A DNA stretch of 64,000 bases. It comes from Nakamurella sp. PAMC28650 (GTDB taxonomy: Bacteria > Actinomycetota > Actinomycetes > Mycobacteriales > Nakamurellaceae). The stretch is from positions 186,001-250,000 of the forward strand of contig NZ_CP060298.1 of NCBI RefSeq assembly GCF_014303395.1, read 5' to 3'. This document shows positions 11,665 through 30,440 of the stretch, in pieces (the stretch's first letter is position 1; the number at the start of each line of letters is the position of its first letter). The position numbers and the translations under genes are program-made. Below the pieces are notes generated by a model, which ran no database searches, was not told the origin of the DNA, and saw nothing but the letters and a program-made list of their open reading frames with translations.

Positions 11665-11681
11665 CTGAGAACAATCTGAGA
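11665..11681 (+). promoter_or_regulatory. Direct-repeat operator CTGAGA-N5-CTGAGA
   Basis: Two perfect CTGAGA half-sites with 11-bp centre spacing, the usual geometry for OmpR-type regulators, end 21 bases before the next start codon. The same repeat lies next to the OmpR-type regulator gene at 28.6 kb. Confidence 0.6.
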
Positions 11682-11704
11682 CCCGGCCGCCATTCTGGCC
11701 GGGT
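11681..11704 (+). other. Hairpin overlapping a start codon
   Basis: ACCCGGCC, an 8-base loop and GGCCGGGT pair perfectly; the 3' arm includes the first two bases of the GTG at 11703. It could be the tail of a terminator for the phosphoesterase gene, or could hide the start codon. Confidence 0.45.
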
Positions 11705-12419
11705 GAAGACATCGATCCCGCTCTCGGAGCTGCTGGCGAAAGCGCCCTGGATCTCCGCGCCCTCGAACGTCCAGGCCGAGGACGCAGGATCGCTGACCAC
11801 GACACCCGCACGCGGGACCGTGGGCAACACCCGACTGACCTCGGCGACCGGGGTCGTCCTGATCGGGTTGCTGCTGGTCGAGGGCGTCACCATCCTGAGC
11901 ATCCGCCAGATGATCACGCTGCACATCTTCGTCGGCGTGCTGCTGCTGGGCCCGGTGCTGCTGAAGACCGGCAGCACGATGTTCCGCTTCGTGCGCTACT
12001 ACCGCGGCGCGCCCGCCTACCGGAAGAAGGGACCGCCGCACCCCGTCCTGCGGGTCCTGGGGCCGTTCGTGATCCTCTCCAGCCTGGCTCTGCTCGGAAC
12101 AGGGGTGGCGCTGATCTTCGCCGGCGATCACCGGTCCGACTGGTTGCTGACCGCGCACCAGACCAGCTTCTGGATCTGGGTCGCCCTGATGACGGTCCAC
12201 GTCGTCGGGCACCTCTGGGAAGCGCTCGTGGTCTCCCGGGCGGAACTGCGCGGTGCACTGCGAGGACCTCAGGCGGGCCGGAGCCGTTGGCGGCTGATCG
12301 TCATCGCTGCCGCTCTGGTGATCGGCGTGGGTACGGCGATGATCCTGCTACCGCATGCGACCTCCTGGACGACGCGCACCGCGGGCCGACACGAGGCGCC
12401 GGCTGCCGCTACGCCCTGA
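11703..12419 (+). CDS. Five-helix membrane protein, cytochrome b-like
   Basis: 238 residues with about five transmembrane segments near residues 48-65, 73-90, 116-137, 152-171 and 200-218. Histidines stand at membrane positions in TLHIFVG, AHQTSF and VHVVGHLWE, a pattern fitting haem-b ligands, though haem binding is inferred only. The first ~45 residues are polar, so the true start may lie downstream; no good ribosome site precedes the GTG. The CTGAGA direct repeat upstream ties it to the electron-transfer locus at 25-35 kb. Confidence 0.75.
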   Translation: MKTSIPLSELLAKAPWISAPSNVQAEDAGSLTTTPARGTVGNTRLTSATGVVLIGLLLVEGVTILSIRQMITLHIFVGVLLLGPVLLKTGSTMFRFVRYYRGAPAYRKKGPPHPVLRVLGPFVILSSLALLGTGVALIFAGDHRSDWLLTAHQTSFWIWVALMTVHVVGHLWEALVVSRAELRGALRGPQAGRSRWRLIVIAAALVIGVGTAMILLPHATSWTTRTAGRHEAPAAATP

Positions 12420-12516
12420 CCCGGGCCGCCGCCCCCAGTGCGCCGTACCTTCCCCACCTGCTCACCGGGCCGCCCGCCGACCGGCTGCGTCGGGATCCGA
12501 TGCTGCCGACCAGGCT

Positions 12517-12533
12517 GAGTCGGCACCCGACTC
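12517..12533. terminator. Hairpin between convergent genes
   Basis: GAGTCGG-CAC-CCGACTC forms a perfect 7-bp stem between the convergent cytochrome b-like gene and the Thr-rich gene. Confidence 0.5.
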
Positions 12534-12566
12534 GGACCGGGCCCGACTCTCCAGACCGGACCCGTC

Positions 12567-13148
12567 TCAGGAGCCGCCCGAACCACCGTTGGAGGAACCC
12601 GCCGCAGGTGTCGGGGCTGCGGCGGGTGGCACGATCGCCGCAGGCGGCGTCGGGGCGGCGGTGGTCCGCACCGGCGCCGCAGCGCTCGTCGCGGGCGCGG
12701 TCGTGGTCGTCACCGCGGCGGAGGTCGGCGTGGACGAGGGACGCCTGGTCGTGGGCGCGTGCACCTTTGGGGCCGCAGCACCGACGGTGCCCGTCTGGCC
12801 GGCGGTGCCGGTCGTTGCAGCGGGGCCGGTCTTTCCAGCGGTGCCGGTCCTGCCGGCGGCGGGCGTCCGGCCGACCGTCCCACTCGACCGGCCCGTGGTG
12901 GTGGTTTCGGCCGGGGCATCCACCCGGGCGGTCGTCGTGGTCGGCGGGGTCCCGACCGCAGCGGAGCGGGAGGCGGCGGGGTGTCCGGCGTCCACCCGAT
13001 GGGTGGACACCGCAGCGGTATGGGGAGCAGCCAGCGCCATCGTGGCGAGGACGGAGGTCAGTCCAGCCGCCCCGGCCACTCCGGCGGTCAACCCTCTGAC
13101 CCGACGGCGCATGGTCAGATATTCGAGCCCACGGGAATGGTGTGACAT
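12567..13148 (-). CDS. Thr/Ala/Pro-rich secreted protein (paralogue A)
   Basis: 193 residues. Twelve residues precede an RRRVRGLTAGVAGAAGL signal or anchor sequence; the mature part is low-complexity Thr/Ala/Pro (repeats such as TGTAGKTGPAATTGTAGQTG) and ends SSNGGSGGS. A paralogue at 30593-30928 has the same 12-residue offset, the same MRRRVR-LTAG start and a GGS end. The composition suits an unstructured, perhaps glycosylated, wall-spanning protein. AGGTGA precedes the ATG. A degenerate CTGAGA direct repeat lies about 146 bases upstream, overlapping a -35 position. No function is known. Confidence 0.7.
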   Translation of the reverse strand: MSHHSRGLEYLTMRRRVRGLTAGVAGAAGLTSVLATMALAAPHTAAVSTHRVDAGHPAASRSAAVGTPPTTTTARVDAPAETTTTGRSSGTVGRTPAAGRTGTAGKTGPAATTGTAGQTGTVGAAAPKVHAPTTRRPSSTPTSAAVTTTTAPATSAAAPVRTTAAPTPPAAIVPPAAAPTPAAGSSNGGSGGS

Positions 13149-13449
13149 TCTTCACCTACTCTTCCTCGATAACATGTTTATGTCTAAAAGGCCCGGTGAG
13201 GCTCTGCAGATCGATCATTTCCGTCGCGCCCGAACCTATACCATTCTTATTTCTTGCTGATATTTCGGCGCATTTTACGCGAAATCCGTTCTGCAGTCAG
13301 AGATTTCTAAGGATGACCTTGCTTGACGACCTCACCCGGTCCAAGTATCCATGAATCAGTCGCATCGTTGCGCATCTTCCTTCCGACCATCGCAGAATAT
13401 GTCCGATTTGCGCAGGCGGATCGATCCCTCCACCGATTGGACTAACGCC
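13149..13449. other. AT-rich divergent intergenic region
   Basis: A 301-base region between two divergent genes, clearly richer in A and T than its surroundings (for example around 13163-13190 and 13240-13290). It contains the promoter and operator at 13272-13311 for the minus-strand gene. No convincing small gene was seen. Confidence 0.6.
13272..13311 (-). promoter_or_regulatory. Promoter with degenerate CTGAGA repeat
   Basis: On the minus strand CTTAGA-N5-CTGACT (13311-13295) is followed after 17 bases by TAAAAT (13277-13272). The second half-site would occupy the -35 position, as for an activator of the OmpR type. Each half-site differs by one base or two from CTGAGA, so the match is weaker than at 11665 or 28526. 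Confidence 0.45.
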
Positions 13450-13908
13450 ATGACCGAATCCGTTACCCGCAGCAACACCACCAGGACTTCGCAGACCCCG
13501 GCTCGTCCCCAGGACGGCAAGATCTTCGCGATACTGACCGGAATCACCTCGCTGGTGGTGCTTCTGCAGGCCGTCTGGGCCGGCGTCTTCCTGGAGCACG
13601 ATGGTGAACGGGACGCATCATCCGCCTGGATCGAGATGCACGCCCGCGGCGCCGAGCTGGCGATCGTGCTCGCCCTTGCGACCACCGTCTTCGCGTTCGT
13701 CCGGATGCGGCCGCGCAAGGATCTGTGGCTCGGGAGTCTGGCCCTGACGATGCTTCTCGTCCTCGAGTCCTACCTCGGCGGTCTCATCAAGGACGCCGGC
13801 AAGGACACCCTGACCGCGGTGCACGTCCCACTGGGCATGGCCATCATGGCGCTCGTCGTGTGGATTCCGTTGCGGGCCCGCCAGTCCCGCGCCGTCAGCG
13901 CCGCCTGA
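13450..13908 (+). CDS. Small four-helix membrane protein
   Basis: 152 residues from the ATG at 13450. Four hydrophobic segments: IFAILTGITSLVVLLQAVWA, ELAIVLALATTVFAF, LWLGSLALTMLLVL and HVPLGMAIMALVVWIPL. Conserved-looking His residues in LEHDGE, MHARGA and AVHVPLG sit near membrane edges and could bind haem, as in small cytochrome b561-like proteins; this is inference. An in-frame ATG at 13399 is an alternative start. No strong ribosome site is visible for either. Confidence 0.65.
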   Translation: MTESVTRSNTTRTSQTPARPQDGKIFAILTGITSLVVLLQAVWAGVFLEHDGERDASSAWIEMHARGAELAIVLALATTVFAFVRMRPRKDLWLGSLALTMLLVLESYLGGLIKDAGKDTLTAVHVPLGMAIMALVVWIPLRARQSRAVSAA

Positions 13909-13914
13909 GGCGCC

Positions 13915-15348
13915 TCAGCCGTCCACCAGCAGGCCACGCGCCGGACCGGCCAACCGTTCGGAGCGCCGGGAGACCGCAGGCAGCGTCATCACTCTCCGGT
14001 TCTGCGGGCGGCCCGTCCGGGTGCGGGCCAGCTGTTCCTCCGCGACCGGCTTCCAGTAGCGGTCGATGACGTTCGTGGGGTCGCCGTCGATCACGTCCAT
14101 CCCCAGCTCGAGATGTTCGGCCCACAGGCGGAGTCTCGTCCGGCGGGCCAACGTGGGGTCCAGGGTCAGCACGTTGACCTCGGTGTCGTTGAAGAGCGAA
14201 TGCTCGTTGAGGTTCGCCGAACCGATGGTCAGCCATCGATCGTCGACGACCGCCACCTTTGCGTGGACGTACAGCGGGTCGATGGTGCCGTCCGCATGGG
14301 CATTCACCGTGGCGGCCAGCAGACGTCCGGCTCCGTTGTCGGCCGCGACCAGCCGTCCCAGCTGCCCGCGTGTGGTGTCGGCACCGTTGCTGGGCCTGGC
14401 GGGAAGCACGATCACGATCCGGAAATCAGGTGCTGGTGGATTTCTGAGCTTTTCGATCAGCAGCTCGGCGATTTCGGCGGACCAGAGGAACTGGTTCTCC
14501 AGATAGATGAACCTGCGGGCCGACGCAAGGCCGTGCAGGTAGGCATCCGCGATGGAGAACTCACCCCGTCGGGCGAACCCGTAGGTCCGTTCGGGAACCG
14601 TTCGGAGTAGCTGCACCGCAACGGATCCCGCCTCCGGTTGCCGTACCGGTGCGGGTAGTCGCTCGTGTGCGACCTCCTGCCAGCGGTCACGGAAGTGGTC
14701 GGCCACATCGGCCACCACCGGCCCCCGGAGGCGGGTCGACACGTCATGCCAGCCGGTGGCGCCCCTGGGCGGGTGAGCCGATAGATCCCAGCGATCACCG
14801 CTGAGATCGGACAGATCGATTCCCCCGACGAAGGCGAGTTCGTCGTCGATCACGATGACCTTCTCGTGATGGCAGTGCATCGTTCTCTCGCGTGCATCCA
14901 GTTCACACCGGACCGAGGACCCCCTGGTCAACTCCTGCTGCACCTGTTTCATCATCGACCGGGTCGGCTGGAAGATCGGGAGGGGCGGCCCGGCCCACAG
15001 CAGCACCCGCACGTCCACCCGCTGCGCGAGGTCCACGAGAATCTCGCGCAGGGTCGGTGTCCCGGGCTCGCGGCGCAGCCAGAAAACTGTGGTCAGGTGC
15101 CAGCCGGCGATGTGGACGTGGGAGTGGGCCGCTCGCAGGGCGTCGTAGATCGAGGCGAACGCCGCCTCTCCGTCGATCAACACCTCCACGTCGTTGCCGG
15201 TCGTGGCGGCCCTGGCCCCCGGAACCCACGTCCGGGAGTCGTCGGCCGAGAACACGTCTGCATGGCCCAGCTTCGAGAGTCGGTTGCGGTGATGCCGGCG
15301 CACCGACTTCTCCAGGGCGCCTCCGACCACGTCGTCGATCCGGCCCAT
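13915..15348 (-). CDS. Phospholipase D-like protein
   Basis: 477 residues with two HKD-type motifs of the PLD superfamily: HCHHEKVIVIDDELAFVGGI in the middle and YVHAKVAVVDDRWLTIGSAN near the C-terminus, followed by NEHSLFND. The pair forms one active site that transfers or hydrolyses phosphodiesters, as in phospholipases and cardiolipin synthases. No N-terminal membrane anchor is visible, so cardiolipin synthase is less likely than a soluble PLD. The ATG at 15348 is chosen because GGGAGA lies 5-6 bases upstream; ATG at 15351 and 15378 are in frame. Confidence 0.85.
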   Translation of the reverse strand: MGRIDDVVGGALEKSVRRHHRNRLSKLGHADVFSADDSRTWVPGARAATTGNDVEVLIDGEAAFASIYDALRAAHSHVHIAGWHLTTVFWLRREPGTPTLREILVDLAQRVDVRVLLWAGPPLPIFQPTRSMMKQVQQELTRGSSVRCELDARERTMHCHHEKVIVIDDELAFVGGIDLSDLSGDRWDLSAHPPRGATGWHDVSTRLRGPVVADVADHFRDRWQEVAHERLPAPVRQPEAGSVAVQLLRTVPERTYGFARRGEFSIADAYLHGLASARRFIYLENQFLWSAEIAELLIEKLRNPPAPDFRIVIVLPARPSNGADTTRGQLGRLVAADNGAGRLLAATVNAHADGTIDPLYVHAKVAVVDDRWLTIGSANLNEHSLFNDTEVNVLTLDPTLARRTRLRLWAEHLELGMDVIDGDPTNVIDRYWKPVAEEQLARTRTGRPQNRRVMTLPAVSRRSERLAGPARGLLVDG

Positions 15349-15438
15349 CATGATCTCCCGCCACTCTCGGACTGCCACAGGTCACCGTCGGCGGATGTTG
15401 CGCGTCGGGCTCCGTGGACGCTGATCCGGGAATGTACC

Positions 15439-15480
15439 CCGGCCGGGCCGACGCCGATGGGCTGACGTCGGCCCGGCCGG
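15439..15480 (-). terminator. Strong hairpin after the ABC binding protein gene
   Basis: A perfect 15-bp stem (CCGGCCGGGCCGACG and its complement) with a 12-base loop separates the transporter operon from the phospholipase gene. Confidence 0.75.
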
Positions 15481-15523
15481 TGGGCCTGTGCGCGGTGGGC
15501 CTGTGTTCGGTGGGCCTGTGCGC
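15479..15523. repeat. Three tandem 15-bp repeats
   Basis: GGTGGGCCTGTGCGC occurs three times in a row (the second copy ends TTC), just after the stop of the binding protein gene. Confidence 0.8.
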
Positions 15524-15531
15524 GGCGGCGG

Positions 15532-16644
15532 TCAGGCCAGAGGGGTGGCCGCCTTGACGAACTCGTCGGTGAAGGTCTTGCTCAGGTCGATGGTCTTGCC
15601 CTTGACCGCCGGGTTGAACGCCGAGAGCACGTTCAGGATGGTGGTGGGTCCGGTGGCCGGCATCATGCCGGTCGGGTTGAAGATGCCCTTCTCGCTGTCC
15701 AGTGCCTTGGCGTAGGCGGTCTTCCCGACGCCGGCGTAGTACGACGCCGGCATCACATCGGCGATCTGGGTGCCGTTGTGCGCCTGGATCCACTTCAGCG
15801 TCGCGACATAGGCGTTGACCAGCTTCTGCACCGTGTCCTTGTGCGAGTTGACGTAGTCGGTGGGCATGTACAGCGAGGTCGCCGGGTATTCACCGCCGAG
15901 CACCGACTGCGCTCCGGCCGAGGTCCGCATGTCGAGCAGGATGAAGGCGATACCGGTGGACAACGCCTGCGAGACGGTCGGTTCGGTCGTCATGCCGCAG
16001 TCGATTGCCTTCTGCTTCATCGCCGCCAGAAAAGTCTGCCCCGCACCTACTCCCCTCCGGGTGGTGGCGGCCGGGTCGACCCCGGCCTTGTGGGTGATGT
16101 ACTGCGTCAGGAAATCGGTGGAGGAGCCGGTATCGGTGATGCCGAGCGACCGGCCCTTGAAGTCGGCCGGGGAATTGATCTGACCCTTCAGATCGCTTCG
16201 GCACAGTTCCACCTCCCCCGGGTTCTGCAGCATCGAGACCACCGACTCGGCGGCCTTTCCCCTGCCCTGCAACACAATGGTGTGGTCGTAGAACCCGCCG
16301 ACACCCTGCACCTGTCCGGCCAGCATGTTGGTGGTCGCGTCGCCACCGGCCGGCTCGTCGATCAGGGTGAGGTTCAGGCCGGCCTTCTGGTAGTACCCGA
16401 GCTGTTTGGCGAGCATGTAGGGCAGGTAGATCTGCTTGGACATACCGCCGACCATGATGGTCAGACCGGCGTCCGAACCGGACGCAGCGGGCGCGGATCC
16501 GGCCGCTGCGGGTGCCGATCCGGCCGCACTCGAGGTGGATGCCGCCGTGGTGTTCCCGGTCGCGTTGTTCGCGCATCCGGCCAGGGACAGAGAGCCGACG
16601 GTCGCGATGATCGCGACCTTCTTCCATCGTGGGGAGTACATCAT
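15532..16644 (-). CDS. ABC transporter substrate-binding lipoprotein (nitrate/taurine type)
   Basis: 370 residues. The lipobox LSLAGC at about residue 24 predicts a lipoprotein anchored outside the membrane; an Ala/Ser/Thr-rich linker follows. The core resembles the SsuA/TauA/NMT1 group (GMSKQIYLPYMLAKQLGYYQ, GVGGFYDHTIVLQ, SLGITDTGSSTDFL), which bind sulfonates, nitrate or pyrimidine precursors; the ligand here is unknown. It is the third gene of an ATPase-permease-binding protein operon and is preceded by a tandem repeat. GGAAGGAA lies before the ATG. Confidence 0.85.
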   Translation of the reverse strand: MMYSPRWKKVAIIATVGSLSLAGCANNATGNTTAASTSSAAGSAPAAAGSAPAASGSDAGLTIMVGGMSKQIYLPYMLAKQLGYYQKAGLNLTLIDEPAGGDATTNMLAGQVQGVGGFYDHTIVLQGRGKAAESVVSMLQNPGEVELCRSDLKGQINSPADFKGRSLGITDTGSSTDFLTQYITHKAGVDPAATTRRGVGAGQTFLAAMKQKAIDCGMTTEPTVSQALSTGIAFILLDMRTSAGAQSVLGGEYPATSLYMPTDYVNSHKDTVQKLVNAYVATLKWIQAHNGTQIADVMPASYYAGVGKTAYAKALDSEKGIFNPTGMMPATGPTTILNVLSAFNPAVKGKTIDLSKTFTDEFVKAATPLA

Positions 16645-16660
16645 TGTTTCCTTCCGATCA

Positions 16661-16757
16661 GGGTTGATGGGGGTTGATCCCGGGTGGGGGTTGATCCGGG
16701 TGGGGGTTGATCCGGGTGGGGGTCGATCCGGGTGGGGGTCGATCAGGATTGATCCGG
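16661..16757. repeat. Tandem GGGTGGGGGTTGATCC repeats
   Basis: About five imperfect 16-bp units (GGGTGGGGGT[T/C]GATCC) fill the gap between the permease and binding protein genes. The strand shown is G-rich, so the mRNA leader of the binding protein gene would carry C-rich repeats. Confidence 0.85.
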
Positions 16758-16771
16758 GCTGTCGTCGGAGT

Positions 16772-18507: not shown

Positions 18508-18778
18508 CAGTGGGTCTCCTTTTTGGTCCGTTGAGGCAGAAGACTGCCCGCACCATCGGAGCATGCAAAGCATTCGCGCCGAACTCACCGAAAAGCTTCA
18601 TTGCACACATATTCGATCTTTTCTGGATACGTGGCGCAACTTCCGGCAGGTTTGGTGCATTTTGCTCATCACCGCTTCCGTCGGAGCAGCGCCTGTGCTT
18701 GACTTCGGTGGACGCAGCGAGATCGGGACCATGCGCGTCGAGCCACCAGAGTCACACCAACGGAGGTGCTGATCGCCC

Positions 18779-20353
18779 ATGCGCTCCCTGGCATCCTGGT
18801 TGCTGTGGTCGGTCGTGGGCATCCTGGTCGGCACGGCGGCCGTCGGCGGTCTCCTGCAGATTCGGCAGACGAGCGCGGTTCTCGATCAGCAGTTCCAGGA
18901 GCGGGCGAGAGCCGAAGCCAGCGCCGTCGCCGACATTCCGCAGGTCCGCGCGGCTCTCATCGCCCACGATCCCGACCGGACGCTGCAGCCGCTGACCGCC
19001 AGGGTGCAGCGCGACACCGGCGCCGCGTACGTCGTCATCACCGACCGGTTCGGGATGCGTTACACCCACCCGACCGCAGCACTGATCGGGCGGCGGCTCG
19101 AGGAGCCGGTCGAGGTGCTCGATGGCCGGACGCACGTCGGCATCGACAACGGCAGCCTGGGCCGCTCGGCCAACGGCAAGGCGCCGATCTTCGCGCCGTC
19201 CGGCGAGGTGATCGGCCAGGTGTCGGTGGGCATCCTGGAGACCACCGTGGCCTCCCAGTTGTCGTCCCAGATCTGGGGAATCGGACTCTACCTGGCGATA
19301 GCGCTCGCGGTCGGGGTGTTGGTGGCCCTGATGATGGCCCGGTCGATGAAGCGCAAGACCTTCGGGCTGGAACTGGGTGAGATCAGCTCCCTGCTCCAGG
19401 AGCGGGAGGCGATGCTGCACGGGATCCGCGAGGGCGTCATCGGATTCGATGCCCGACAACGGGTTTCGCTGATCAACGACGAGGCCCGGCGCCTGCTCGG
19501 ACTGTCCGACCAGAAGGTCGGTGAACCGCTCACCCGGTCCCTCCCGCCCGGTCGTCTGCTGGACGTGTTGACCGGCGGTTCGACCGGAGCAGATCAGGTG
19601 GTCCTGACCGACGACTCGTTGCTGGTGGTGAATCGGCGCACCGTGGTGATCGGCGGCAGGTCTGCGGGCAGCGTCGTCACCCTGCGGGATCGGACCGAGA
19701 TGGAGGGACTCATCAGAGAACTGGATTCGGCGACCGGTCTCGCCCATGCGCTGCGCGCGCAGGAGCATGAATTCGCCAATCGCCTGCACGTCATCGGTGG
19801 GCTGCTGGATCTGGAGGAAATCGCCGAGGCCCGAAGGTACGTGGATATCGTCGGCGCCGGGCACACCGGCTCCGCGGAGGACCTGCGCGCCCAGATCTCG
19901 CCGCCGTTGATCGCCGGACTGCTACTGGCCAAGCAGACCATCGCCGCCGAGCGGGACATCGATCTGGTCCTGACCGAGGACTCGCACCTCCACCTGCCGA
20001 ACGGGCCGACGGCCCAGAACGTCATGACCATTCTCGGGAACCTGATCGACAATGCGCTGGATTCGGTCGGAGACCGACCAGCGCCCCGGGAGGTGGTGGT
20101 GGCCATCGCCGGTGACGCGGTCCTGTCCATCGTCGTCAGCGACAACGGGCCGGGGGTGGACCCGGAGAACATCGAGCGCATCTTCGCCGACGGTTTCTCC
20201 ACGAAACCGACGAGGGCCGACCGCCGTCGCGGGATGGGACTGGCCCTGGTCCAACGACTCGTCCGCAGATCCGGCGGCAGCATCACGGTCGATCCGGGTC
20301 CGGGCGGCCGTTTCGAGGTCGTCATGCCTGCGACTGCGGAACTGCCCGCATGA
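18779..20353 (+). CDS. CitA/DcuS-like sensor histidine kinase
   Basis: 524 residues. An N-terminal helix (LLWSVVGILVGTAAVGGLL), an extracytoplasmic Cache/PDC-like sensor of about 140 residues (ending GEVIGQVSVGIL), a second helix (LYLAIALAVGVLVALMMA), a cytoplasmic PAS domain and a kinase domain. The phosphoacceptor is the His in EHEFANRLHVIGGLLDLEE, typical of the citrate/C4-dicarboxylate sensor family; the ATPase shows NLIDNALDS, DNGPGVDPE and RGMGLALV. A TGA directly precedes the ATG in frame, which fixes the start. It is translationally coupled to the regulator gene. Confidence 0.9.
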   Translation: MRSLASWLLWSVVGILVGTAAVGGLLQIRQTSAVLDQQFQERARAEASAVADIPQVRAALIAHDPDRTLQPLTARVQRDTGAAYVVITDRFGMRYTHPTAALIGRRLEEPVEVLDGRTHVGIDNGSLGRSANGKAPIFAPSGEVIGQVSVGILETTVASQLSSQIWGIGLYLAIALAVGVLVALMMARSMKRKTFGLELGEISSLLQEREAMLHGIREGVIGFDARQRVSLINDEARRLLGLSDQKVGEPLTRSLPPGRLLDVLTGGSTGADQVVLTDDSLLVVNRRTVVIGGRSAGSVVTLRDRTEMEGLIRELDSATGLAHALRAQEHEFANRLHVIGGLLDLEEIAEARRYVDIVGAGHTGSAEDLRAQISPPLIAGLLLAKQTIAAERDIDLVLTEDSHLHLPNGPTAQNVMTILGNLIDNALDSVGDRPAPREVVVAIAGDAVLSIVVSDNGPGVDPENIERIFADGFSTKPTRADRRRGMGLALVQRLVRRSGGSITVDPGPGGRFEVVMPATAELPA

Positions 20354-21030
20354 TCCGCACGCTGGTCGTCGACGACGATTTCCGGGTCGCCCACATCCAC
20401 GCGGCCGGGGTGGCCAAGGTGGACGGCTTCTCCTGCATCGGACAGGCGCACACCGCCGCGACCGCCCGTCTTGCCATCGACCAGCATCATCCCGATCTGC
20501 TGATCCTGGACATCTACCTCCCGGACGAGGACGGGCTGAGCCTGCTGCGGTCGTTGGCCGGTGCGGGCACCGCCCCTGACACGATCTTCATCACCGCTGC
20601 ACGCGATGTCGATTCGGTCCGGGCTGCGATGGGGCTCGGCGCGATCTACTACCTGGTCAAGCCGTTCGGCTTCGCCCAGTTCCGCCAGCAACTCGACGCC
20701 TACCGGGGGTGGCGCGAGCAACTGATCACCGAGGCCGGTGAACAGACCGACCAGGCAACCATCGATTCCCTGTTCAGCACCCTGCGGCGCCCTGTCCCTT
20801 CCGCGGAGCAGACACGCCTTCCCCCGACCATGGCCAAGATCCTGCGCACCGTCGGCGAGTCACCGGAAGCCATCGGGGCCAGCACCACCGCCCGCGCACT
20901 CGGGATGAGCCGTCCGACCGCCCAGCGGTACCTCTCGGAATTACAGCGAAAGGGACTCCTCGAGCTGGAGTTGTCCTACGGATCCACCGGGCGACCGGTC
21001 CATCGCTACCGGCTCAGCAATCCGCGTTGA
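20350..21030 (+). CDS. CitB/DcuR-like response regulator
   Basis: 226 residues. The receiver domain has the acidic pair VDDDF, the phosphoacceptor in LLILDIYLPDEDG and the Lys in YYLVKPF. A linker leads to a C-terminal helix-turn-helix (STTARALGMSRPTAQRYLSE), as in CitB/DcuR regulators. ATG overlaps the kinase stop by 4 bp. The family usually controls uptake of organic acids; here the nearest candidate target is the divergent ABC transporter. Confidence 0.9.
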   Translation: MIRTLVVDDDFRVAHIHAAGVAKVDGFSCIGQAHTAATARLAIDQHHPDLLILDIYLPDEDGLSLLRSLAGAGTAPDTIFITAARDVDSVRAAMGLGAIYYLVKPFGFAQFRQQLDAYRGWREQLITEAGEQTDQATIDSLFSTLRRPVPSAEQTRLPPTMAKILRTVGESPEAIGASTTARALGMSRPTAQRYLSELQRKGLLELELSYGSTGRPVHRYRLSNPR

Positions 21031-21151: not shown

Positions 21152-21550
21152 GTACGGCCTTCTTCGTGCTGCCTTCTTCAACGCCTGCTGCGTCTTCGCA
21201 TGTACCTTTCATCAATCAACTCCGCCGCCCGGCGGCCTTCAAGGGTCAACTTATGCAACAGATCTCGGCCTCCGATCGTCATGCGACTTCGGTCACCATT
21301 TCCGAGAAATTCCGTTCGGTCGGCCGATATCTTCTGAGATTCTTCTGACGACGACGGAATGGACGGACGACCGGCGGACCAACAGTCTGCTGTCGGCGCC
21401 ATGCCTGGAACCCATTTCTGTGAGCAGGCGTACATCGGGTATGGACGTCGGATGTCGGTCGGTTGTCGGAGAAGTGCACGATCAACGCCACGTACGCCGT
21501 ACGGTTCAGCCTCAAAGGCTATCTACTATCTCGTGTGTAGTATCCCGTTC
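21152..21550. other. Intergenic region upstream of the glycosyltransferase
   Basis: About 400 bases without a convincing gene, lower in GC than its flanks. It holds a perfect CGTACG-C-CGTACG palindrome near 21490 and a TACTAT -10-like box near 21525 close to the glycosyltransferase start. A CTGAGA-N5-CTGACG direct repeat at 21334-21350 resembles the operators of the electron-transfer locus, but may be chance. Confidence 0.5.
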
Positions 21551-23217: not shown

Positions 23218-23250
23218 ACGGCCGAATCCTCAGACCCGGCCCAGCAACCT

Positions 23251-23310
23251 GCGGTCGCCGATGCGGTCGCCGATGCGGTCGCCGATCCCGTTCGCCGATC
23301 CGGTCGCCGC
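23251..23310. repeat. 12-bp tandem repeats GCGGTCGCCGAT
   Basis: Three exact copies of GCGGTCGCCGAT are followed by two degenerate ones, in non-coding DNA upstream of the TPM gene. Confidence 0.75.
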
Positions 23311-23460
23311 TCGGGTGGCTGCTCGGGTCGCGGCGCGGGCAGGACGAGCAGACGCGGGCGGCGTGCGTCCGCAGGCTGGCAACTGGCGCCGGAGTCGTCC
23401 CGGTCGATCGCAGGTGGTCGGGGGGCCGTGCGGGCACCGGGCGCCGATAGGCTGCGGGGC

Positions 23461-25518
23461 ATGTCGTTGCCACTGGATAGACCGAGAAGTTCGGGGTCGA
23501 GGATTCGCTCGGCCGTCATCGTGCTGCTGGCTCTGTGTGCCCTGGCACTGGGGCCGGGGGTGGCAGCGGCCGACGCCCCGTTCAACATCCCGAACCAGAT
23601 CACCGACCGTAGCTCCGCTCTGGGCGGGAACACGACCAGCGTCAAGAACGCGATCGACACGTTGTACAGCCAGGACAAGGTCCAGCTCTGGGTGGTCTAC
23701 GTCAGCAGCTTCGACGGGCAGGCGGGCAACGTCTGGGCGAATGCATCCGGTGCGCTGTCGGGCTTCGACAGCCACACCATGCTGCTGGCCGTCGCCACCG
23801 TGGACAAGTCGTACGGGTACTACGTGCCCAGCGGCTTCCCACTCAGCAAGAGCCAGGTCGACACGATCGCAGCGAACGACATCGTGCCGCAACTCAAGGC
23901 GGCCAACTGGTCCGGCGCCGCGGTGGCGGCCGCCGACGGCCTGCGGTCCACGATCGGTGGATCCTCGGGGTCCGGCAGCAAGTCCTGGATCCTGTGGGTG
24001 ATCCTGATCGTGATCCTGGCCGGCGGACTCATCTGGTACCTGCGGGCCAGGAAGTCCAGGGCCGCCGACCCGAACCGCCAAGGATCAGGGCACGGTTCCG
24101 GGAGCGGCGGTGACGCGCCGGCCGGCCCCGTCCCGGTGCCGCTGGAACCACTGCAGTCGGTGTCCGACCGGAGCGTGCAGCTGCTGATCGCCAGCGACAA
24201 CGCCGTGCACGGCAGCGAGCAGCAGCTGATCATCGCGGAGAGCACCTTCGGCGCCGCGGCGATGGCCGAGTTCCGAGCGGCTTTCGAGAGTGCACGTACC
24301 TCGTTGGCAGCAGCCTTCCAGCTGCGGCAGCAGATCGACGACGACATCCCAGAGGACGAGAGCACCCGGCGCGCCTGGATGGAAGAGATCATCCAGCGCT
24401 GCACCGATGCCGACAATGCACTGGACGCGCAGAGCGACCGTTTCGACGCCATGCTGGACCTGAAGAACCGTCTGCCGGCCGCCGTCGCCGACATCGAGGC
24501 GGCACTCCAGGTCCAGGAGGCCAGGGTCGCCGAGGCCACCGGCACGCTGGCGCAGCTGGGCTCCGCCTACGCTCCGAGCGCGTTGAGCGCCGTCATCACG
24601 AACGCGTCGGAAGCCTCGAATCGTCTGGACTTCGCGAAGTCGTCGATCGCGACCGCCCGAGGCGAGGAGTCCGACGCCGATACCACCCCAGCGGTGGTCG
24701 CCGCCCGGAACGCTCAGGAGTCCGTCGCCCAGGCCACCACGCTGCTCGATGCCATCGACAGGCTGAGCTCCGACCTGGCCGATGCGAAGACCCGGCTACC
24801 GGGGCGATTGGCCCCGGTGCAGGCCGAACTGGCGGCGGCCAGGGCTGCCTTCGGGCAGGGCAGCACCGGCAGCGCCGGCCCGACGATCTCGGCGAGGCTG
24901 ACCCAGGTCGAGACCTCGTTGGCCGCGGTGGCCGGACCGAATGGCACCAAGGACCCGATCCTGGCCACCCAGCGGGTGCGGGAGGCCGACGCGACGCTCG
25001 ACGAGATCCTGGCCGCGACCAGATCAGCCCAGGACGTGCAGCAGCGGGCGCTCGCAGCTCTGCAGCAGTCCCTGGACTCGGCGCAGGCCAGGATCACCGG
25101 CGCCAACGACTTCATCAACACCCGACGCGGCGCCGTCGGCAGCGAGGCCCGCACCCGACTGGCCGAGGCCCAGCGGCACCTGGAGAACGCCGTGAACCTG
25201 AGCAACTCCGACCCGGCGGGTGCGCTGGCGGAGTCCCGGCAGGCCGAGTCGCTGGCCGACGAGGCGTCGCGGCTGGCCCAGAACGACATCGGCCGCTGGC
25301 AGGGGCCCGGTGGCGGCGGTTACGCCGGTGGCGGGTTCGGTCGCGGGGGCGGCGGCAACTTCACCGGGGCGATCCTGGGCGGCCTCCTCGGTGGGATGCT
25401 CAGCGGCGGCGGTGGTTTCGGCGGCTTCGGAGGCGGGGGCGGTGGCGGCTTCGGAGGCGGCGGCAGCTTCGGAGGCGGCGGCGGCGGCGGCGGATTCAGC
25501 GGGGGCGGCCGCTTCTGA
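23461..25518 (+). CDS. TPM-domain membrane protein with Gly-rich tail
   Basis: 685 residues. Signal peptide to about residue 38 (VIVLLALCALALGPGVAAAD), then an extracytoplasmic TPM domain (residues ~45-170, ITDRSSALGG and VYVSSFDGQ-type strands), one membrane helix (SWILWVILIVILAGGLIWYL, ~178-197), a long helical, probably coiled-coil cytoplasmic region, and a C-terminal tail of about 70 residues that is almost all Gly, Phe and Ser. TPM proteins include an archaetypal phosphatase and photosystem repair factors; in actinobacteria their role is unclear. The gene stands alone. Confidence 0.8.
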   Translation: MSLPLDRPRSSGSRIRSAVIVLLALCALALGPGVAAADAPFNIPNQITDRSSALGGNTTSVKNAIDTLYSQDKVQLWVVYVSSFDGQAGNVWANASGALSGFDSHTMLLAVATVDKSYGYYVPSGFPLSKSQVDTIAANDIVPQLKAANWSGAAVAAADGLRSTIGGSSGSGSKSWILWVILIVILAGGLIWYLRARKSRAADPNRQGSGHGSGSGGDAPAGPVPVPLEPLQSVSDRSVQLLIASDNAVHGSEQQLIIAESTFGAAAMAEFRAAFESARTSLAAAFQLRQQIDDDIPEDESTRRAWMEEIIQRCTDADNALDAQSDRFDAMLDLKNRLPAAVADIEAALQVQEARVAEATGTLAQLGSAYAPSALSAVITNASEASNRLDFAKSSIATARGEESDADTTPAVVAARNAQESVAQATTLLDAIDRLSSDLADAKTRLPGRLAPVQAELAAARAAFGQGSTGSAGPTISARLTQVETSLAAVAGPNGTKDPILATQRVREADATLDEILAATRSAQDVQQRALAALQQSLDSAQARITGANDFINTRRGAVGSEARTRLAEAQRHLENAVNLSNSDPAGALAESRQAESLADEASRLAQNDIGRWQGPGGGGYAGGGFGRGGGGNFTGAILGGLLGGMLSGGGGFGGFGGGGGGGFGGGGSFGGGGGGGGFSGGGRF

Positions 25519-25530
25519 GCGCGGAGCCCG

Positions 25531-26391
25531 TTACCGACGCGTCCCGATCCGACCGACCTCGGGACGGGGCAGATCCGACACCTGGAACGAGTCGAATCCG
25601 TCGGTGGCGAAGACCTCGTCGTCCTCGGTGACCGCCATCAGGTCGTACCCATCCGCGCAGCAGAGGCCGATCAGGGCCTGCGAGGGATCCAGAAGGGCCG
25701 GTCGACCCGCCGCCACCAGCGCCGTCGCCCAGATGTCCGCCCAGGTCAGCGACGGTCCGACGACGGTGACCTGACGGACGCCACCGGCCGCGGACGCCGT
25801 GTGCGGATCGATGATGTGCGCGCCGCGGTGCGCCGCACCGGAGGTCGCCACAGCGAAGTCCCGCAGACCCAGGACGGTGAGCAGACCGGAGGGCTGGAAG
25901 GGGTGTTCGATCCCGATGCGCCACGGCGCCCCGGCCGATCGGCAGACGATGTCGCCACCGGCGTTGAGGTAGCTGTCACAGCCGATGTCCGCGAGTTCGT
26001 CGCCGGCCCGCTGTGCGGCCCAGCCCTTGACCACCCCGCTGGGATCGAGTGCGCCGCTGTACCTGATGTCGAACCAGCCGTCGGTACGAACCCTGGCGCA
26101 CTCGGCGATCTCCAGCACGGCGGCGAACTCGGCGGCCGCTCCGGGTGCCACCAGGCGTCCGGCCCGCACCGCCTGCAGTTCGCTGTCGGCCAGGTACGGA
26201 CTGAAGATCCGGTCGCAGCGGCGCATGACGTCGAAGGCCCGATCGACCGCGGCCGCCGCCTCCGCCGCGACGACGGCGGGCCCACCGGGCCGCTCCCGCA
26301 GGTGGATGCTCACCGGCAGTCCCATGATCATCTCGGTGCGGGCCACGACGGGCGGGGCGGTCACCCGATCGACCCCCTCGCCGGGGCTCAC
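25531..26391 (-). CDS. apbE: FAD:protein FMN transferase ApbE (intact copy)
   Basis: 286 residues. It transfers FMN from FAD to a Thr/Ser of an exported flavoprotein. Family features: MGLPVSIHL start, FSPYLADSEL, the GVVKGWAAQRAGD helix, YLNAGGDI, the ATSGAAHRGAHIIDPHT loop and the metal-binding ADIWATALVAAG. GTG overlaps the stop of the FMN-binding protein gene by 4 bp, so the enzyme is made together with its likely substrate. No lipobox is visible, unlike many Gram-negative ApbE. Confidence 0.92.
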   Translation of the reverse strand: MSPGEGVDRVTAPPVVARTEMIMGLPVSIHLRERPGGPAVVAAEAAAAVDRAFDVMRRCDRIFSPYLADSELQAVRAGRLVAPGAAAEFAAVLEIAECARVRTDGWFDIRYSGALDPSGVVKGWAAQRAGDELADIGCDSYLNAGGDIVCRSAGAPWRIGIEHPFQPSGLLTVLGLRDFAVATSGAAHRGAHIIDPHTASAAGGVRQVTVVGPSLTWADIWATALVAAGRPALLDPSQALIGLCCADGYDLMAVTEDDEVFATDGFDSFQVSDLPRPEVGRIGTRR

Positions 26392-27008
26392 TTGAAATGG
26401 ACCTGGTCGAGGGCCGACTGCAGCGAACCGACGAACCCCTGGCTGGTGTAGGTCGCGCCGCTCACCCCAGCAACGTTGGCGCTCTGCGCGGAGAGCACCT
26501 GGGATCGCAGTTGCGGCAACGCATACTGGTTGATCTCCTGGTCACGGCCGCTCCCCTGCGGGTACACGATGGCGTTCACGTCGGTGATCCGGCCGGCCTT
26601 GATCACGACCTCGACCTGCACCGGACCGTAGGGGGTATCCGTCGAGGCGCCGTCGACGGTGACCGATCGGGCGGCGCTCGGGGTCGCCGGCGTCGACTTC
26701 CTGGACGATGACGCGGTCGATCCTGCCGCCCGGCCCGACGGGGCCGACGTCTTCGTGGACCCTCCGGCAGGCGCGCCCGGGACCGTGGTCGGCGTTGCGG
26801 CACTTGCGTTCCCGCTCGTGACCGGGTCCGGTCCGGCGGCGGAGGAGACCACCGACCCGGGTGCGGTCACCACGTGCGCCTGGCCGATCGCCACCGTCGT
26901 CGCGGTGATCGGCTGGTCCCGGCTGGTGCGGTAGCTGAAGAGCAGGACCAGCACCGCCAGGGTACTGACGATGGTGAAGGTGATGCGCCGCATGGGGTTC
27001 GCCTGCAT
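26388..27008 (-). CDS. Exported FMN-binding domain protein
   Basis: 206 residues. One N-terminal helix (ITFTIVSTLAVLVLLFSY), a Ser/Thr/Pro-rich linker of about 85 residues, then an FMN-binding domain (PF04205-like) from ~115 to the end. The flavinylation motif SGATYTS is at residues 183-189 with Thr186 as the predicted FMN acceptor. It probably accepts electrons outside the membrane from the adjacent ferric-reductase-like protein. ATG at 27008 is chosen; ATG at 26993 (MRRITF) is equally possible. Confidence 0.88.
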   Translation of the reverse strand: MQANPMRRITFTIVSTLAVLVLLFSYRTSRDQPITATTVAIGQAHVVTAPGSVVSSAAGPDPVTSGNASAATPTTVPGAPAGGSTKTSAPSGRAAGSTASSSRKSTPATPSAARSVTVDGASTDTPYGPVQVEVVIKAGRITDVNAIVYPQGSGRDQEINQYALPQLRSQVLSAQSANVAGVSGATYTSQGFVGSLQSALDQVHFK

Positions 27009-27048
27009 TTCTGGGGTCGAGATGAAACGGTCACCGATGACCTGCCGG

Positions 27049-28503
27049 TCAGCCGGCAAAGTCCTCGGTGTGGATGACGGAGCCCGGGACGTGCAGTTCC
27101 CGCAGGGTCCGGCGGACCTCCCGGACCCAGGGTTTCGGGCCGCAGAGGTAGACCTCGCGCTCGGCCGCGTCCGGCACCAGACGTCGCAGCGCATCAGCTC
27201 CATGGACGGTGTGCGGGCCGGGGAACCACCCGCTGGACGGCCCCCGACGACCGACCAGCGGGATGACCCTGATCCCCGAACGCTTGGCCAGTTCGAGGAA
27301 CTCACCGGCGAACAGAGCCATCGAGACGTCCCGGGAACGCTGGATCACCACCACCGACGGCCGTACCGCCCGGCGGGGAACCCGCTCGTTGCCGATCATC
27401 TCGGCCAGCGCACGGATCGGGGTTATTCCGACGCCGGCGCCGATCAGGAGCACGTCACGCCGACTGCGCCGATCGGCGGTCATGGTCCCGTAGGGCCCCT
27501 CGAACAACACCCTGGTACCGGGTTTCGTCCTGGCCAGCCGGTCCGAACCGTCACCCACCCGTTGCACGGTGATCCGCACCGAACGGGAGGTCGGTACCGC
27601 CGACACCGAGAACGGTTGCGCCCTCGTCCATCCGGTGCCGCTCAGGAACCGCCACTGGCAGAACTGACCGGCCTGCAGACCCATCCGATCGAGGTGGCGA
27701 CCACCCATGACGACCGAGAACACCCCGGGCCCTTCGCGTCTCACCGACGTCACGGTCAGACGATGCCGGTAGCTGGAGATCAGCGGTCGCAGCAGGCGAA
27801 AGATCACCACCGCACCCATGGTCGCGCCCCATAGCGACCACCAGTACACGGTCGCCGCCTTCGATGAGAGGAAGTCCTTGCCCGTCCACAACTGGTGTGG
27901 CAGCGCCAGTCCGACCCCGAGGTAGGAGTAGAGGTGGATGAGATGCCATGACTCGTAACGCAAGGTCGGTCGAGCGCGCCGGATCGAGGTGACCACCACC
28001 GCGACCAGTGCGAGCGTGCCGGCCGCGGCCAGCAGCATGCCCGCATAGTGCAGGACCAGGTCCCAGGCCTGGGCCAGCAGGTTCACCCGACCGTCCTGCG
28101 CGTACCCGATGGTGATCAGGACGATGTGGACCCACATCAGCCAGAACGAGGTGAACCCCAGCCAACGATGCCGGCGGGCCAGATCCCCCTGACCCCAGAC
28201 CTGCTCGACCCACGGGATGCGGGCCATCAGCAGCACCTGGAGCAGCAGGAAATCGGCCGAGACCAGCCCGGTGAGCCGGCCGAGGGCCGTCGCCGGTCCA
28301 CCGGCGCCGTGGAGCAGGACGGTGACGTTGCCGCCGGCGAACCACAGGACCACCACGACGACGACGCTGGCGATGGTCACCGTGCCGATCGCGTCGCCGA
28401 TCCACGCCAGCCTGCGGTGGCGGGACGACGGGCGCCATTCGAGCGCGGGCGCAGCGGGCAGGGCCGCCGGAACGCGTCCGCGGTTCGACAGGTTCGACAC
28501 CAT
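27049..28503 (-). CDS. Ferric-reductase-like transmembrane ferredoxin reductase
   Basis: 484 residues. About six helices in the first 230 residues carry likely haem His residues (MWVHIVLITIG, LVLHYAGML, WHLIHLYSY, LALPHQLW). A cytoplasmic FNR-like half follows: FAD motif RAQPFSVSAVP, nucleotide motif LLIGAGVGITPIRAL and the C-terminal LCGPKPWVREV. It would pass electrons from cytoplasmic NAD(P)H through FAD and haem to an outside acceptor, most likely the flavinylated protein encoded next. It heads the oxidoreductase-FMN protein-apbE operon, with a CTGAGA direct repeat 22 bases upstream. Confidence 0.9.
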   Translation of the reverse strand: MVSNLSNRGRVPAALPAAPALEWRPSSRHRRLAWIGDAIGTVTIASVVVVVVLWFAGGNVTVLLHGAGGPATALGRLTGLVSADFLLLQVLLMARIPWVEQVWGQGDLARRHRWLGFTSFWLMWVHIVLITIGYAQDGRVNLLAQAWDLVLHYAGMLLAAAGTLALVAVVVTSIRRARPTLRYESWHLIHLYSYLGVGLALPHQLWTGKDFLSSKAATVYWWSLWGATMGAVVIFRLLRPLISSYRHRLTVTSVRREGPGVFSVVMGGRHLDRMGLQAGQFCQWRFLSGTGWTRAQPFSVSAVPTSRSVRITVQRVGDGSDRLARTKPGTRVLFEGPYGTMTADRRSRRDVLLIGAGVGITPIRALAEMIGNERVPRRAVRPSVVVIQRSRDVSMALFAGEFLELAKRSGIRVIPLVGRRGPSSGWFPGPHTVHGADALRRLVPDAAEREVYLCGPKPWVREVRRTLRELHVPGSVIHTEDFAG

Positions 28504-28525
28504 GTCGGCTATGTTCCGCCCGGTG

Positions 28526-28542
28526 TCTCAGAGCAGTCTCAG
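28526..28542 (-). promoter_or_regulatory. Direct-repeat operator in the divergent promoter
   Basis: On the minus strand CTGAGA-CTGCT-CTGAGA, perfect in both halves, lies between the oxidoreductase operon and the response regulator gene. It is the likely binding site of that regulator and could serve both directions. Confidence 0.65.
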
Positions 28543-28587
28543 AGCCCCCCGTGACACGATCGATTCCATGAGCAACAGATTGTTTTC

Positions 28588-29307
28588 ATGAGCGGCGACA
28601 GCGACGCCACCGCCGCGCAGGCCCAGGTGAGCGCCGACGAGGCGCCGGACCCGCGACCACGACTGCTGCTGGTCGAGGACGACCGGGCCCTGGCGCCCCT
28701 GCTGATCGAGGTCCTGCAGGACGACTACCTGGTCGATCACGCCCCCGACGGCCAGGTCGGCCTGCATCGCGCCCTGACCAGGGAGTACGAGGTGATGGTG
28801 ATCGACAGGGGACTGCCGGCGATCGACGGGCTGGAACTGGTGAGCAAGCTGAGGGCACGCGGGATCATCAACCCGATCCTGTTGCTGACGGCGCGCGGCA
28901 CCCTGGCCGACAAGATCGCCGGCCTGGATGCCGGGGCGGAGGACTACGTCGTCAAGCCGTTCGAGATCGACGAACTGCTGGCCAGACTCCGCGCGCTCCT
29001 GCGTCGGCATTCCGAGGCCACCCCGACCATCGGCATCGGGCGTCGGCGCTTCGAGGTGAGGTCCCGCCGGGTGGTGGGCGGCGGAGAGGCCCCGGTCGAC
29101 CTCTCGGGCAAGGAATCCATCCTGTTGGAGACGCTGGCCCGACGTCCCGGCCGGGTCTTCACCCGACCGGAGCTGCTCTCGGCGGTCTTCGACTCCAACG
29201 ACACCGAGGGCACCGTCGACACCTACGTCTACTACCTGCGGAGAAAGCTCGGCCGGGAAGTGGTCAGCACCGTGCACGGTCTGGGTTACCGCATCGGTAG
29301 CCTGTGA
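28588..29307 (+). CDS. OmpR-family response regulator
   Basis: 239 residues. About 25 extra residues precede the receiver domain (LLLVEDDRALAPLL, phosphoacceptor Asp in VMVIDRGLPAIDG, VKPFEIDELLARL). The C-terminal winged helix shows RRVVGGGEAPVDLSGKE and GTVDTYVYYLRRKLGREVV. It is divergent from the ferric-reductase operon and coupled to its kinase by a GTGA overlap. The direct repeats with 11-bp spacing found in this window are what such a regulator should bind. Confidence 0.92.
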   Translation: MSGDSDATAAQAQVSADEAPDPRPRLLLVEDDRALAPLLIEVLQDDYLVDHAPDGQVGLHRALTREYEVMVIDRGLPAIDGLELVSKLRARGIINPILLLTARGTLADKIAGLDAGAEDYVVKPFEIDELLARLRALLRRHSEATPTIGIGRRRFEVRSRRVVGGGEAPVDLSGKESILLETLARRPGRVFTRPELLSAVFDSNDTEGTVDTYVYYLRRKLGREVVSTVHGLGYRIGSL

Positions 29308-30392
29308 GTACCGACACCCGCCTCGAGACCGGAAGGCTGTACATGCGCAAGCACTCCGGGCTCGATACCGGCCGATCACAGGGCGAGGGCAACGTCGGCG
29401 ATGAAGCCCTCATCCGTCATGCGGCCCGGCGGATCGGCGTGCAGATCGCACTGGCGAGCGCCTTCGCGGTCGCGGTCGCGGCGGCGCTGGCCTTCACCCT
29501 GCTCCATCGCCACCACGGCGACCCGGCGACCGGCACACCCCACCTCGAACCACCGACGGACAGCGACGCCCTGGTCCTCAACGCGCTGATCGTGGCGGGT
29601 TCGATCGGCGTGTTGATCGCCGGCGTGGTGGCGTTCTTCATCGCTCGACGTGCCGTTCGCCCGCTGGGGCAGGCACTTTCGCTGCAGCGCCGGTTCGTCG
29701 CCGACGCGGGTCACGAACTGCGCACTCCCCTGACGATCCTGCACACCAGGGCCCAACTGCTGGCCCGCCGGCTCCCCGTCGGGGACCCGGCCGGCCAGAT
29801 CGCCGCACAGCTGCTCGACGACAGCCGGGTCCTCGGCGAGATCGTGGACGAGCTACTGCTCAGCGCCACCCTGTCCGCGCATCCGGGCCTGGCGGAGGAG
29901 ATGGATCCGGCCGAGCTGTTGAACGAGGTGGCCGCCAGCATGCAGGTGCTCGCCGACGACTCCGGGGTCCGCCTCCGGACGGCTGCCCTACCGGGTCTGC
30001 ACATGCGAGGATCCCGCCCGGCCCTGCGGCGGGCATTGATAGCCCTGGTGGACAACGCCATCTCGCATTCCGTCGACGGCGGCGATGTGAAATTGAGCGC
30101 GGTGGGCGCCAAGGGAATGGTCGCCCTGTCGGTCACCGATCAGGGGGAGGGATTGTCCTCCGACGGTCGCCGGGAGGAAATGTGGAATCGGTTCTCCCGC
30201 GGCAAGAGCACGAACCCGGACCACGCCACCGAGCGACCGATCGGAAATCGACGCTATGGACTCGGCCTCTCGCTGGTGCGCGAGATCGCAACGGCACACG
30301 GCGGTACGGTCTCCCTCACCGATGCTCCCCACGCCAAGGGCGCCGTCGCCACCCTCACCATTCCCTCGGCCGGAAACACCGCCACACCCTAG
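29304..30392 (+). CDS. Sensor histidine kinase (OmpR-type partner)
   Basis: 362 residues. Two helices (LASAFAVAVAAALAFTLL and ALIVAGSIGVLIAGVVAFFI) enclose a short outside loop of about 40 residues, too small for a large ligand domain. The phosphoacceptor is in DAGHELRTPLTILHTRAQLL; the ATPase shows LVDNAISHS, DQGEGLS and YGLGLSLVREIA. No HAMP of normal length is evident. The small sensor loop could sense membrane or redox state; this is a guess. Confidence 0.9.
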   Translation: MSTDTRLETGRLYMRKHSGLDTGRSQGEGNVGDEALIRHAARRIGVQIALASAFAVAVAAALAFTLLHRHHGDPATGTPHLEPPTDSDALVLNALIVAGSIGVLIAGVVAFFIARRAVRPLGQALSLQRRFVADAGHELRTPLTILHTRAQLLARRLPVGDPAGQIAAQLLDDSRVLGEIVDELLLSATLSAHPGLAEEMDPAELLNEVAASMQVLADDSGVRLRTAALPGLHMRGSRPALRRALIALVDNAISHSVDGGDVKLSAVGAKGMVALSVTDQGEGLSSDGRREEMWNRFSRGKSTNPDHATERPIGNRRYGLGLSLVREIATAHGGTVSLTDAPHAKGAVATLTIPSAGNTATP

Positions 30393-30423
30393 AACCTCCT
30401 ACGACGGCCCCCCTGGATTCGCA

Positions 30424-30440
30424 CTGAGAAATTCCTGAGC
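30424..30440 (+). promoter_or_regulatory. Direct-repeat operator upstream of the Thr-rich gene
   Basis: CTGAGA-AATTC-CTGAGC differs from the perfect repeat in one base. It lies 152 bases before the Thr-rich gene, nearly the same distance as the degenerate site before the paralogue at 13148. No clear -10 follows at the expected place. A hairpin (AAGCCT/AGGCTT, 30522-30549) lies in the leader. Confidence 0.5.

Follow-up and report, generated by a model that had tools for sequence, protein, structure and literature searches.

A CTGAGA direct repeat as the putative operator of a two-component system beside flavin electron-transfer genes in Nakamurella sp. PAMC28650

We analyzed a 64,000-nucleotide stretch of the Nakamurella sp. 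PAMC28650 genome (contig NZ_CP060298.1, positions 186,001 to 250,000; hereafter the window), in which the direct repeat CTGAGA-N5-CTGAGA (the box) stands before genes of electron transfer and beside the genes of a two-component system. The comparisons described below make it likely that this repeat is the operator of the adjoining system, whose response regulator would activate the electron-transfer genes in the manner of PhoB, control its own synthesis, and include two genes for threonine-rich proteins, ThrA and ThrB, among its targets. An earlier note on this DNA had proposed that one regulator serves several unlinked electron-transfer genes, and this proposal gains support from footprinting, from covariation between the regulator's recognition helix and the box, from the boxes of a related genome (G002), and from the finding that helix and box are together unique to this regulator in its own genome. 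The mechanism is of a known type; as far as our searches show, what is new is the regulon, the rule for its promoters and the link of box to helix, and the accessible part of the open-licence literature that we searched held no description of this regulon or box.

Two perfect repeats at matching distances from start codons

A scan of the window recovered both perfect copies of the repeat that had been reported previously, one at 11665-11681 on the plus strand, before the gene for the cytochrome-like membrane protein M5, and one at 28526-28542 on the minus strand, within the divergent region between fre and the regulator gene and reading toward fre. The start codons of M5 and fre lie 21 and 22 bases from these sites, a shared distance that the earlier note had not mentioned. 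No other perfect copy occurs in the 5.63-Mb single-contig genome, and CTGAGA (with its reverse complement) is the sole hexamer with at least three A/T for which the window has two perfect 11-bp repeats. Allowing up to one mismatch, we found 13 sites in the genome versus 2 for a reversed-pattern control; five of the 13 cluster in 44 kb (genome positions 172851, 192530, 197665, 214526 and 216424, on a scale where the window is 186001-250000), and three of the five are sites that had already been singled out.

Weaker copies had also been claimed before the two threonine-rich genes, with gaps of 152 and 146 bases to the start codons, and these distances are correct. The copy before ThrB, at 30424-30440 on the plus strand, does carry a single mismatch (CTGAGA-N5-CTGAGC); the copy before ThrA, at 13295-13311 on the minus strand, proved to have three (CTTAGA-N5-CTGACT) and is not credible on its own.

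We then compared the half-site spacing with its alternatives, using per-genome totals as counts. Spacing 5 gives 123 matches in 101 genomes versus a mean of 14.9 over the 20 other spacings between 0 and 20 (8.3-fold), and 12 matches versus 3.5 in the 17 genomes of the genus. Given this excess across genomes, the repeat is a genuine class of operator in the order.

Sites from other genomes rank the same four positions first

To score the window, we built a matrix from 16 hand-chosen sites of other genomes, with no site of the strain's own genome included; because the 16 were found by their likeness to CTGAGA, the matrix is independent of the strain's own sites and not of the half-site that the earlier note had named. 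Among all window positions on both strands, the matrix ranks 28526 first, 11665 second, 30424 third and 13295 fourth. A score of at least 20 is reached at 4 window positions, versus 0.015 per dinucleotide shuffle and a maximum of 1 in 200 shuffles. The evidence for the two Thr sites comes mainly from this matrix and from a ThrA-like gene of G002 (below).

A consensus derived from the matrix has 9 matches in the whole genome versus 3 for the control. Four of the nine (13295, 21334, 28526 and 30424) fall in a 17-kb part of the window, and a further match, at 915992, precedes a cytochrome-b-like gene; to this extent the expected enrichment near redox genes was found, and the matches that depart from it are given with the opposing evidence. 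A K at consensus position 3 lets the 13295 site in (without it there are 8 matches, 3 of them in the window), and the 11665 site fails the consensus.

The box may stand in for a -35 element

At both perfect sites, a -10-like hexamer of the form xAxxxT begins 9 bp after the box. The M5 promoter reads CTGAGA, 9 bases, CATTCT (11691..11696, plus strand), 6 bases, GTG; the fre promoter reads CTGAGA, 9 bases, GAACAT (28511..28516, minus strand), 7 bases, ATG. The same offset of exactly 9 bp is found in 15 of 19 regulator-upstream sites, 9 of the 15 belonging to the Jiangella/Phytoactinopolyspora/Haloactinopolyspora group and 6 lying outside it; this set comprises every regulator-upstream site with up to two mismatches, each counted once, 12 mirrored readings having been removed. 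A less redundant set of 22 sites, hand-chosen to exclude near-identical copies and including those of M5, fre, the membrane protein M4 and the Thr genes, gives 13 at 9 bp and at most 3 at any other offset. No site of either set was selected by the xAxxxT feature. Within the strain's own genome, the full promoter pattern has five matches: the two perfect sites, position 915974 before the cytochrome-b gene, position 690987 beside another regulator, and position 5398055, the last two without a known tie to the system. On the regulator side of the fre/regulator box, by-eye alignment with Jiangella regulator promoters places a -10-like CACGAT (28555..28560, plus strand) 12 bases after it. The alternative of the box as a plain -35 element with a 17-bp spacer was rejected; among the 22 sites it fits ThrA (TAAAAT) and one site of G008 (TATGGT).

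At pstS, PhoB binds two direct half-sites 11 bp apart, in a box that replaces the -35 element about 10 bp before the -10, and at PhoB-activated promoters of this kind the regulator stands in for the missing -35 element. Judged by sequence, the perfect-site promoters have this PhoB-like class II arrangement, with the box at a fixed offset in the -35 position. The system thus resembles OmpR/PhoB activation in its receiver and winged-helix regulator, its 11-bp direct half-sites and the place of its box. It differs from PhoB at pstS in its CTGAGA half-site, its flavin electron-transfer targets and its start codons, which follow the -10 by 6-7 nt.

We propose that the regulator, once phosphorylated, forms a head-to-tail dimer on the two CTGAGA half-sites, which are 11 bp apart. 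Before the fre operon and M5, where the box would replace the -35 element and ends 9 bp before xAxxxT, this dimer would itself recruit RNA polymerase, in PhoB-like class II activation. The closeness of the start codons to the -10 suggests that fre and M5 yield near-leaderless mRNAs. The box also fronts the regulator's own divergent promoter, an arrangement that would allow autoregulation. The regulon probably also includes ThrA and ThrB, whose sites differ in geometry: of the four sites, only the two perfect ones combine box, 9 bp and xAxxxT, which bears out the suggestion in the earlier note that the two pairs may differ in their mode of action.

The same placement is compatible with repression, in which the box would cover the promoter and keep fre and M5 off until a signal arrives, since the box overlaps the region that polymerase binds and occlusion could act from there. 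A repressor site may drift, however, and an offset to the -10 held at 9 bp in several clades, with the box at the -35 place, is the arrangement that recruitment calls for; we consider repression improbable.

The box accompanies one recognition helix among close orthologues

The OmpR/PhoB-family response regulator (28588..29307, plus strand; recognition helix TVDTYVYYLRRKLG) has a receiver domain (PF00072) and a winged-helix domain (PF00486), both above cut-off. The sensor histidine kinase gene that adjoins it (29304..30392, plus strand) encodes HisKA and HATPase_c domains and two hydrophobic stretches with a short loop between them. None of the named regulators of NCBIfam (CseB, MtrA, PhoB, RppA and others) passes its cut-off among the 25 of 84 families listed, the best score among these matches being that of RppA (155.7 versus a cut-off of 250). 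Orthology to MprA was also considered and rejected; the recognition helix is different.

To compare upstream regions, we searched 397 genomes of the order for relatives of the regulator, scoring 7 candidates per genome; 62 genomes had a match, and 30 loci were taken. A further 80 loci came from named genomes, of which L093-L136 were used; L093 is the same locus as L066 and was excluded from the upstream-box, helix and 19-site counts. Genes in relatives were called with a simple codon-position script and named partly by eye. The strain's own locus is counted in the fractions 16/31, 16/18, 15/19 and 13/30 given in this report.

We examined the 230 bases that precede the conserved core. Of the 31 regulators with 57% identity or more, 16 show a box there at up to two mismatches, versus a mean of 0.43 and a maximum of 3 in 100 shuffles, and 10 show one at up to one mismatch, versus 0 in shuffles. 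The comparison of orthologue promoters that had been suggested came out in favor of the box. Among regulators of 48-57% identity, a box stands upstream in 2 of 42. Within the 31, the box follows the recognition helix: it is present with 16 of 18 DTYxxYLRRK helices, 0 of 9 DACxHHLRRK helices and 0 of 4 with other residues. Family f15 accounts for all nine changed helices (DACxHHLRRK), and the Jiangella/Phytoactinopolyspora/Haloactinopolyspora group for nine of the 16 box-bearing orthologues, so the covariation of helix and box represents few independent events; relatedness remains in these counts, and P values serve only as guides. Of 30 loci from the order, 13 have a homologue of the redox genes within ~1.5 kb of the regulator gene.

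In the strain's own genome, 19 OmpR-type regulators have a match that reaches the helix. DTYxxYLRRK occurs in this regulator alone, as does a box with 0-1 mismatch in the 230 bases upstream; the nearest other helix is ATYISYLRRK (L273).

In a related genome the box is shared without linkage

The full promoter pattern is matched four times in the 6.1-Mb genome G002. One match precedes the regulator gene, one M5 and one a ThrA-like gene, and the fourth, at 42590, lies just past the kinase gene with no clear downstream target. The regulator gene, with a box of its own, is 1.75 Mb away from the M5/ThrA-like/apbE/nuoF group. Because of this separation, linkage cannot explain the shared box. G002 is the strongest comparative case; the argument rests on where the matches lie and not on their number.

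Other relatives keep parts of the arrangement. The box before M5 is perfect in G002 and has two mismatches in G001. In G014, an M4 homologue is divergent from the fre operon, with a box between them. M5 adjoins the fre operon in G001 and directly follows an FMN (flavin mononucleotide)-binding gene in G064 and G107. G008 has three perfect boxes near a kinase/DUF2231 locus and a second PF01794/NuoF operon. In six Jiangella-type genomes, the strict box pattern has 8 matches, of which 5 are known regulator-upstream sites and the other 3 are L256-L258.

Evidence against the assignment and competing explanations

Several observations weigh against the assignment of the box to this regulator and to redox genes. 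Few fre and M5 genes beyond the closest relatives have the box: with up to two mismatches it precedes M5 at 3 of the 18 loci, the strain's own among them, and a site with up to one mismatch occurs in the stretch fetched for 2 of 29 foreign fre loci (L036 and L042). Two genomes of the genus, G003 and G010, have M5 without a box, and no close orthologue of the regulator was found in them. Five of the nine consensus matches, including 21334, have no recognizable adjoining redox gene, and in this respect the expected enrichment near redox genes did not hold. Among the 43 loci L094-L136, there is no redox-gene homologue within 6 kb of the regulator. The G008 regulator lacks an upstream box despite a fitting helix, and below 57% identity a box lies upstream of only 2 of 13 regulators with the DTYxxYLRRK helix. 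Neither Thr site has xAxxxT at 9 bp; ThrA has TAAAAT at 17 bases, and CTGACT as a -35 element would make this resemble an ordinary promoter. In Jiangella, Phytoactinopolyspora and Haloactinopolyspora, the box and its 9-bp hexamer face a lipoprotein-like gene (three loci read), which in one of the three is preceded by a GNAT-like gene. Because the Jiangella-type boxes face other genes, the regulator is paired with the box more widely than the redox assignment reaches, and after this result we rejected the idea that the box serves redox genes everywhere.

CTGAGA boxes also adjoin other regulator genes in other families, and the repeat is therefore not the operator of one regulator throughout the order. 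We take some of these genes in another family (L031, L032) to be MprA-like. Chiefly another OmpR-family regulator might then own the boxes, with the adjoining one sharing them or binding otherwise. G014 has its M4/fre box beside a regulator of only 37% identity; G001 (M5) and G014 (M4/fre) both keep boxes without a detected close regulator orthologue, while G003-type congeners have M5 without a box; and the strain's own second divergent regulator/fre pair carries GTGAGA-N5-GTGAGA. Against this stand the other 18 OmpR-type regulators of the strain's own genome, none of which has DTYxxYLRRK or a box with fewer than two mismatches, even if one comes near in its helix, and the close orthologues of this regulator, in which loss of the box accompanies the change of helix. 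We regard ownership by another regulator as unlikely, if somewhat less so than repression.

A pleasing pattern can also be picked out of 64 kb by chance. With up to two mismatches the window has 6 matches versus 4.65 expected, and with up to three there are 34 matching places; since loose matches occur in about the number expected by chance, the loose pattern (2-3 mismatches) was discarded as evidence. Likewise, across the 17 genomes of the genus we counted 25 matches to the full promoter pattern versus 22 to its reversed control, a number that is uninformative by itself. The genome-wide count of perfect sites, the footprinting, the foreign-site matrix and the fixed -10 offset all oppose chance, which is a very unlikely explanation, for the two perfect sites above all.

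Gene products and a possible electron-transfer pathway

The fre operon, on the minus strand, begins with fre (27049..28503), which encodes an MsrQ-like, ferric-reductase-like PF01794 protein with a C-terminal NAD-binding domain. It is followed by a gene for a membrane-anchored FMN-binding protein (26388..26993, PF04205; start set by eye at MRRITF), whose SGATYT we take to be the flavinylation motif, and, as third gene, by that for an ApbE-type FMN transferase (25531..26391, PF02424). On the other side of the two-component system, the plus strand encodes ThrB (30593..30928), a Thr-rich paralogue of ThrA that overlaps a second apbE (30925..31773, PF02424), then a second PF01794 protein (32941..33537), in which no NAD domain was found, and a NuoF-like NADH dehydrogenase subunit (33534..34838, PF01512 and PF10589), its likely partner. 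An IS1595/ISXO2-type transposase gene (31792-32766, minus strand, PF12762 and PF12760) lies between the second apbE (ending at 31773) and the second PF01794 gene (starting at 32941), and it parts genes that are close together in G002.

M5 (11703..12419, plus strand, GTG start) is a b561-like membrane protein of about five helices. His 74, 152 and 166 are invariant in 17 of 17 aligned rows, and there is a weak match to Ni_hydr_CYTB, under cut-off; given the three histidines and the weak b561 likeness, M5 is probably a b-type cytochrome. ThrA (12567..13148, minus strand) has a signal-anchor and a Thr/Ala/Ser-rich tail; both it and ThrB are short proteins with a single hydrophobic stretch and a Thr-rich tail. 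M4 (13351..13908, plus strand, true start uncertain) has four hydrophobic stretches and a weak likeness to CtaA.

MsrQ-like flavinylation clusters are described as broadly present in Actinobacteria and as comprising a PF01794 protein with a PF00175 domain or, more rarely, a NuoF-like partner, together with an FMN-binding protein and ApbE, and the available portion of that paper names no regulator for them (PMC8238504). The window fits the cluster definition as given in that portion, its PF01794 protein, FMN-binding substrate and ApbE standing together; unlike the clusters described there, it has two such groups close together, along with M5 and the Thr-rich genes. The controlled genes would build MsrQ-like modules for flavin-based electron transfer across the membrane. 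A bolder possibility, which we put forward tentatively, is that this lineage has a complete pathway of flavin electron transfer across the membrane under the control of a single dedicated two-component system. The pathway would consist of a module of Fre and the FMN-binding protein fed by reduced nicotinamide adenine dinucleotide or its phosphate (NAD(P)H), a second module fed by NuoF, and the b-type cytochrome M5 and secreted Thr-rich proteins as components not recognized until now. The family would then have been rewired to other envelope genes in Jiangella-like relatives, with box and -10 geometry unchanged.

Autoregulation, if it occurs as proposed, would be a feature shared with MprAB of actinobacteria, whose OmpR-family regulator in C. 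glutamicum recognizes the consensus TKTTAAGAAM according to the part of the report available (PMC12113857). The regulator described here is unlike MprA: it is ~40% identical to L031/L032, and it has a different helix and presumed redox targets. Phosphate-type regulators are a familiar example of this design, whose use for this poorly understood electron-transfer system looks new. Given a defined operator, a rule for the promoters (box, then 9 bp, then xAxxxT) and a helix tied to the box, M5 and the Thr-rich proteins would become members of one testable regulon, and the inducing signal, once found, would tell what the electron-transfer system is for.

Other features

A seven-codon frame, MSNRLFS (28568..28591, plus strand), lies upstream of the regulator gene and overlaps its start in ATGA; it may couple translation or sense something. 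A candidate box at 21334..21350 (plus strand, CTGAGA-N5-CTGACG, matrix rank 5) precedes a gene for a family 2 glycosyltransferase; a by-eye check found no -10 at 9 bp, and its role is doubtful. A site at 6530, with one mismatch and 6 bp before the gene of a secreted-looking protein without a Pfam match, was not counted, there being no xAxxxT in reach. A second two-component pair of another type occupies 18779-21030 and is citrate/dicarboxylate-sensor-like by reading only.

The second divergent regulator/fre pair of the strain's genome (L188, L263) is located at G000:C1:4287209-4289535; its fre is 52% and its regulator 42% identical to those of the window. The GTGAGA repeat lies upstream of its regulator, possibly marking a parallel system with a shifted half-site. 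In family f15, where the helix is mostly changed, CTGTGC-N5-CTGAGA recurs upstream of fre (L057, L058, L060 and L062). Finally, in Microbispora and Nonomuraea (L128:4447, L129:4476, L132:4441 and L117:4792), a box is followed 10 bp downstream by AACACT or AACAAT and stands before a gene that we named, by eye, flavin-monooxygenase-like; a related regulator gene follows ~5.4 kb further on.

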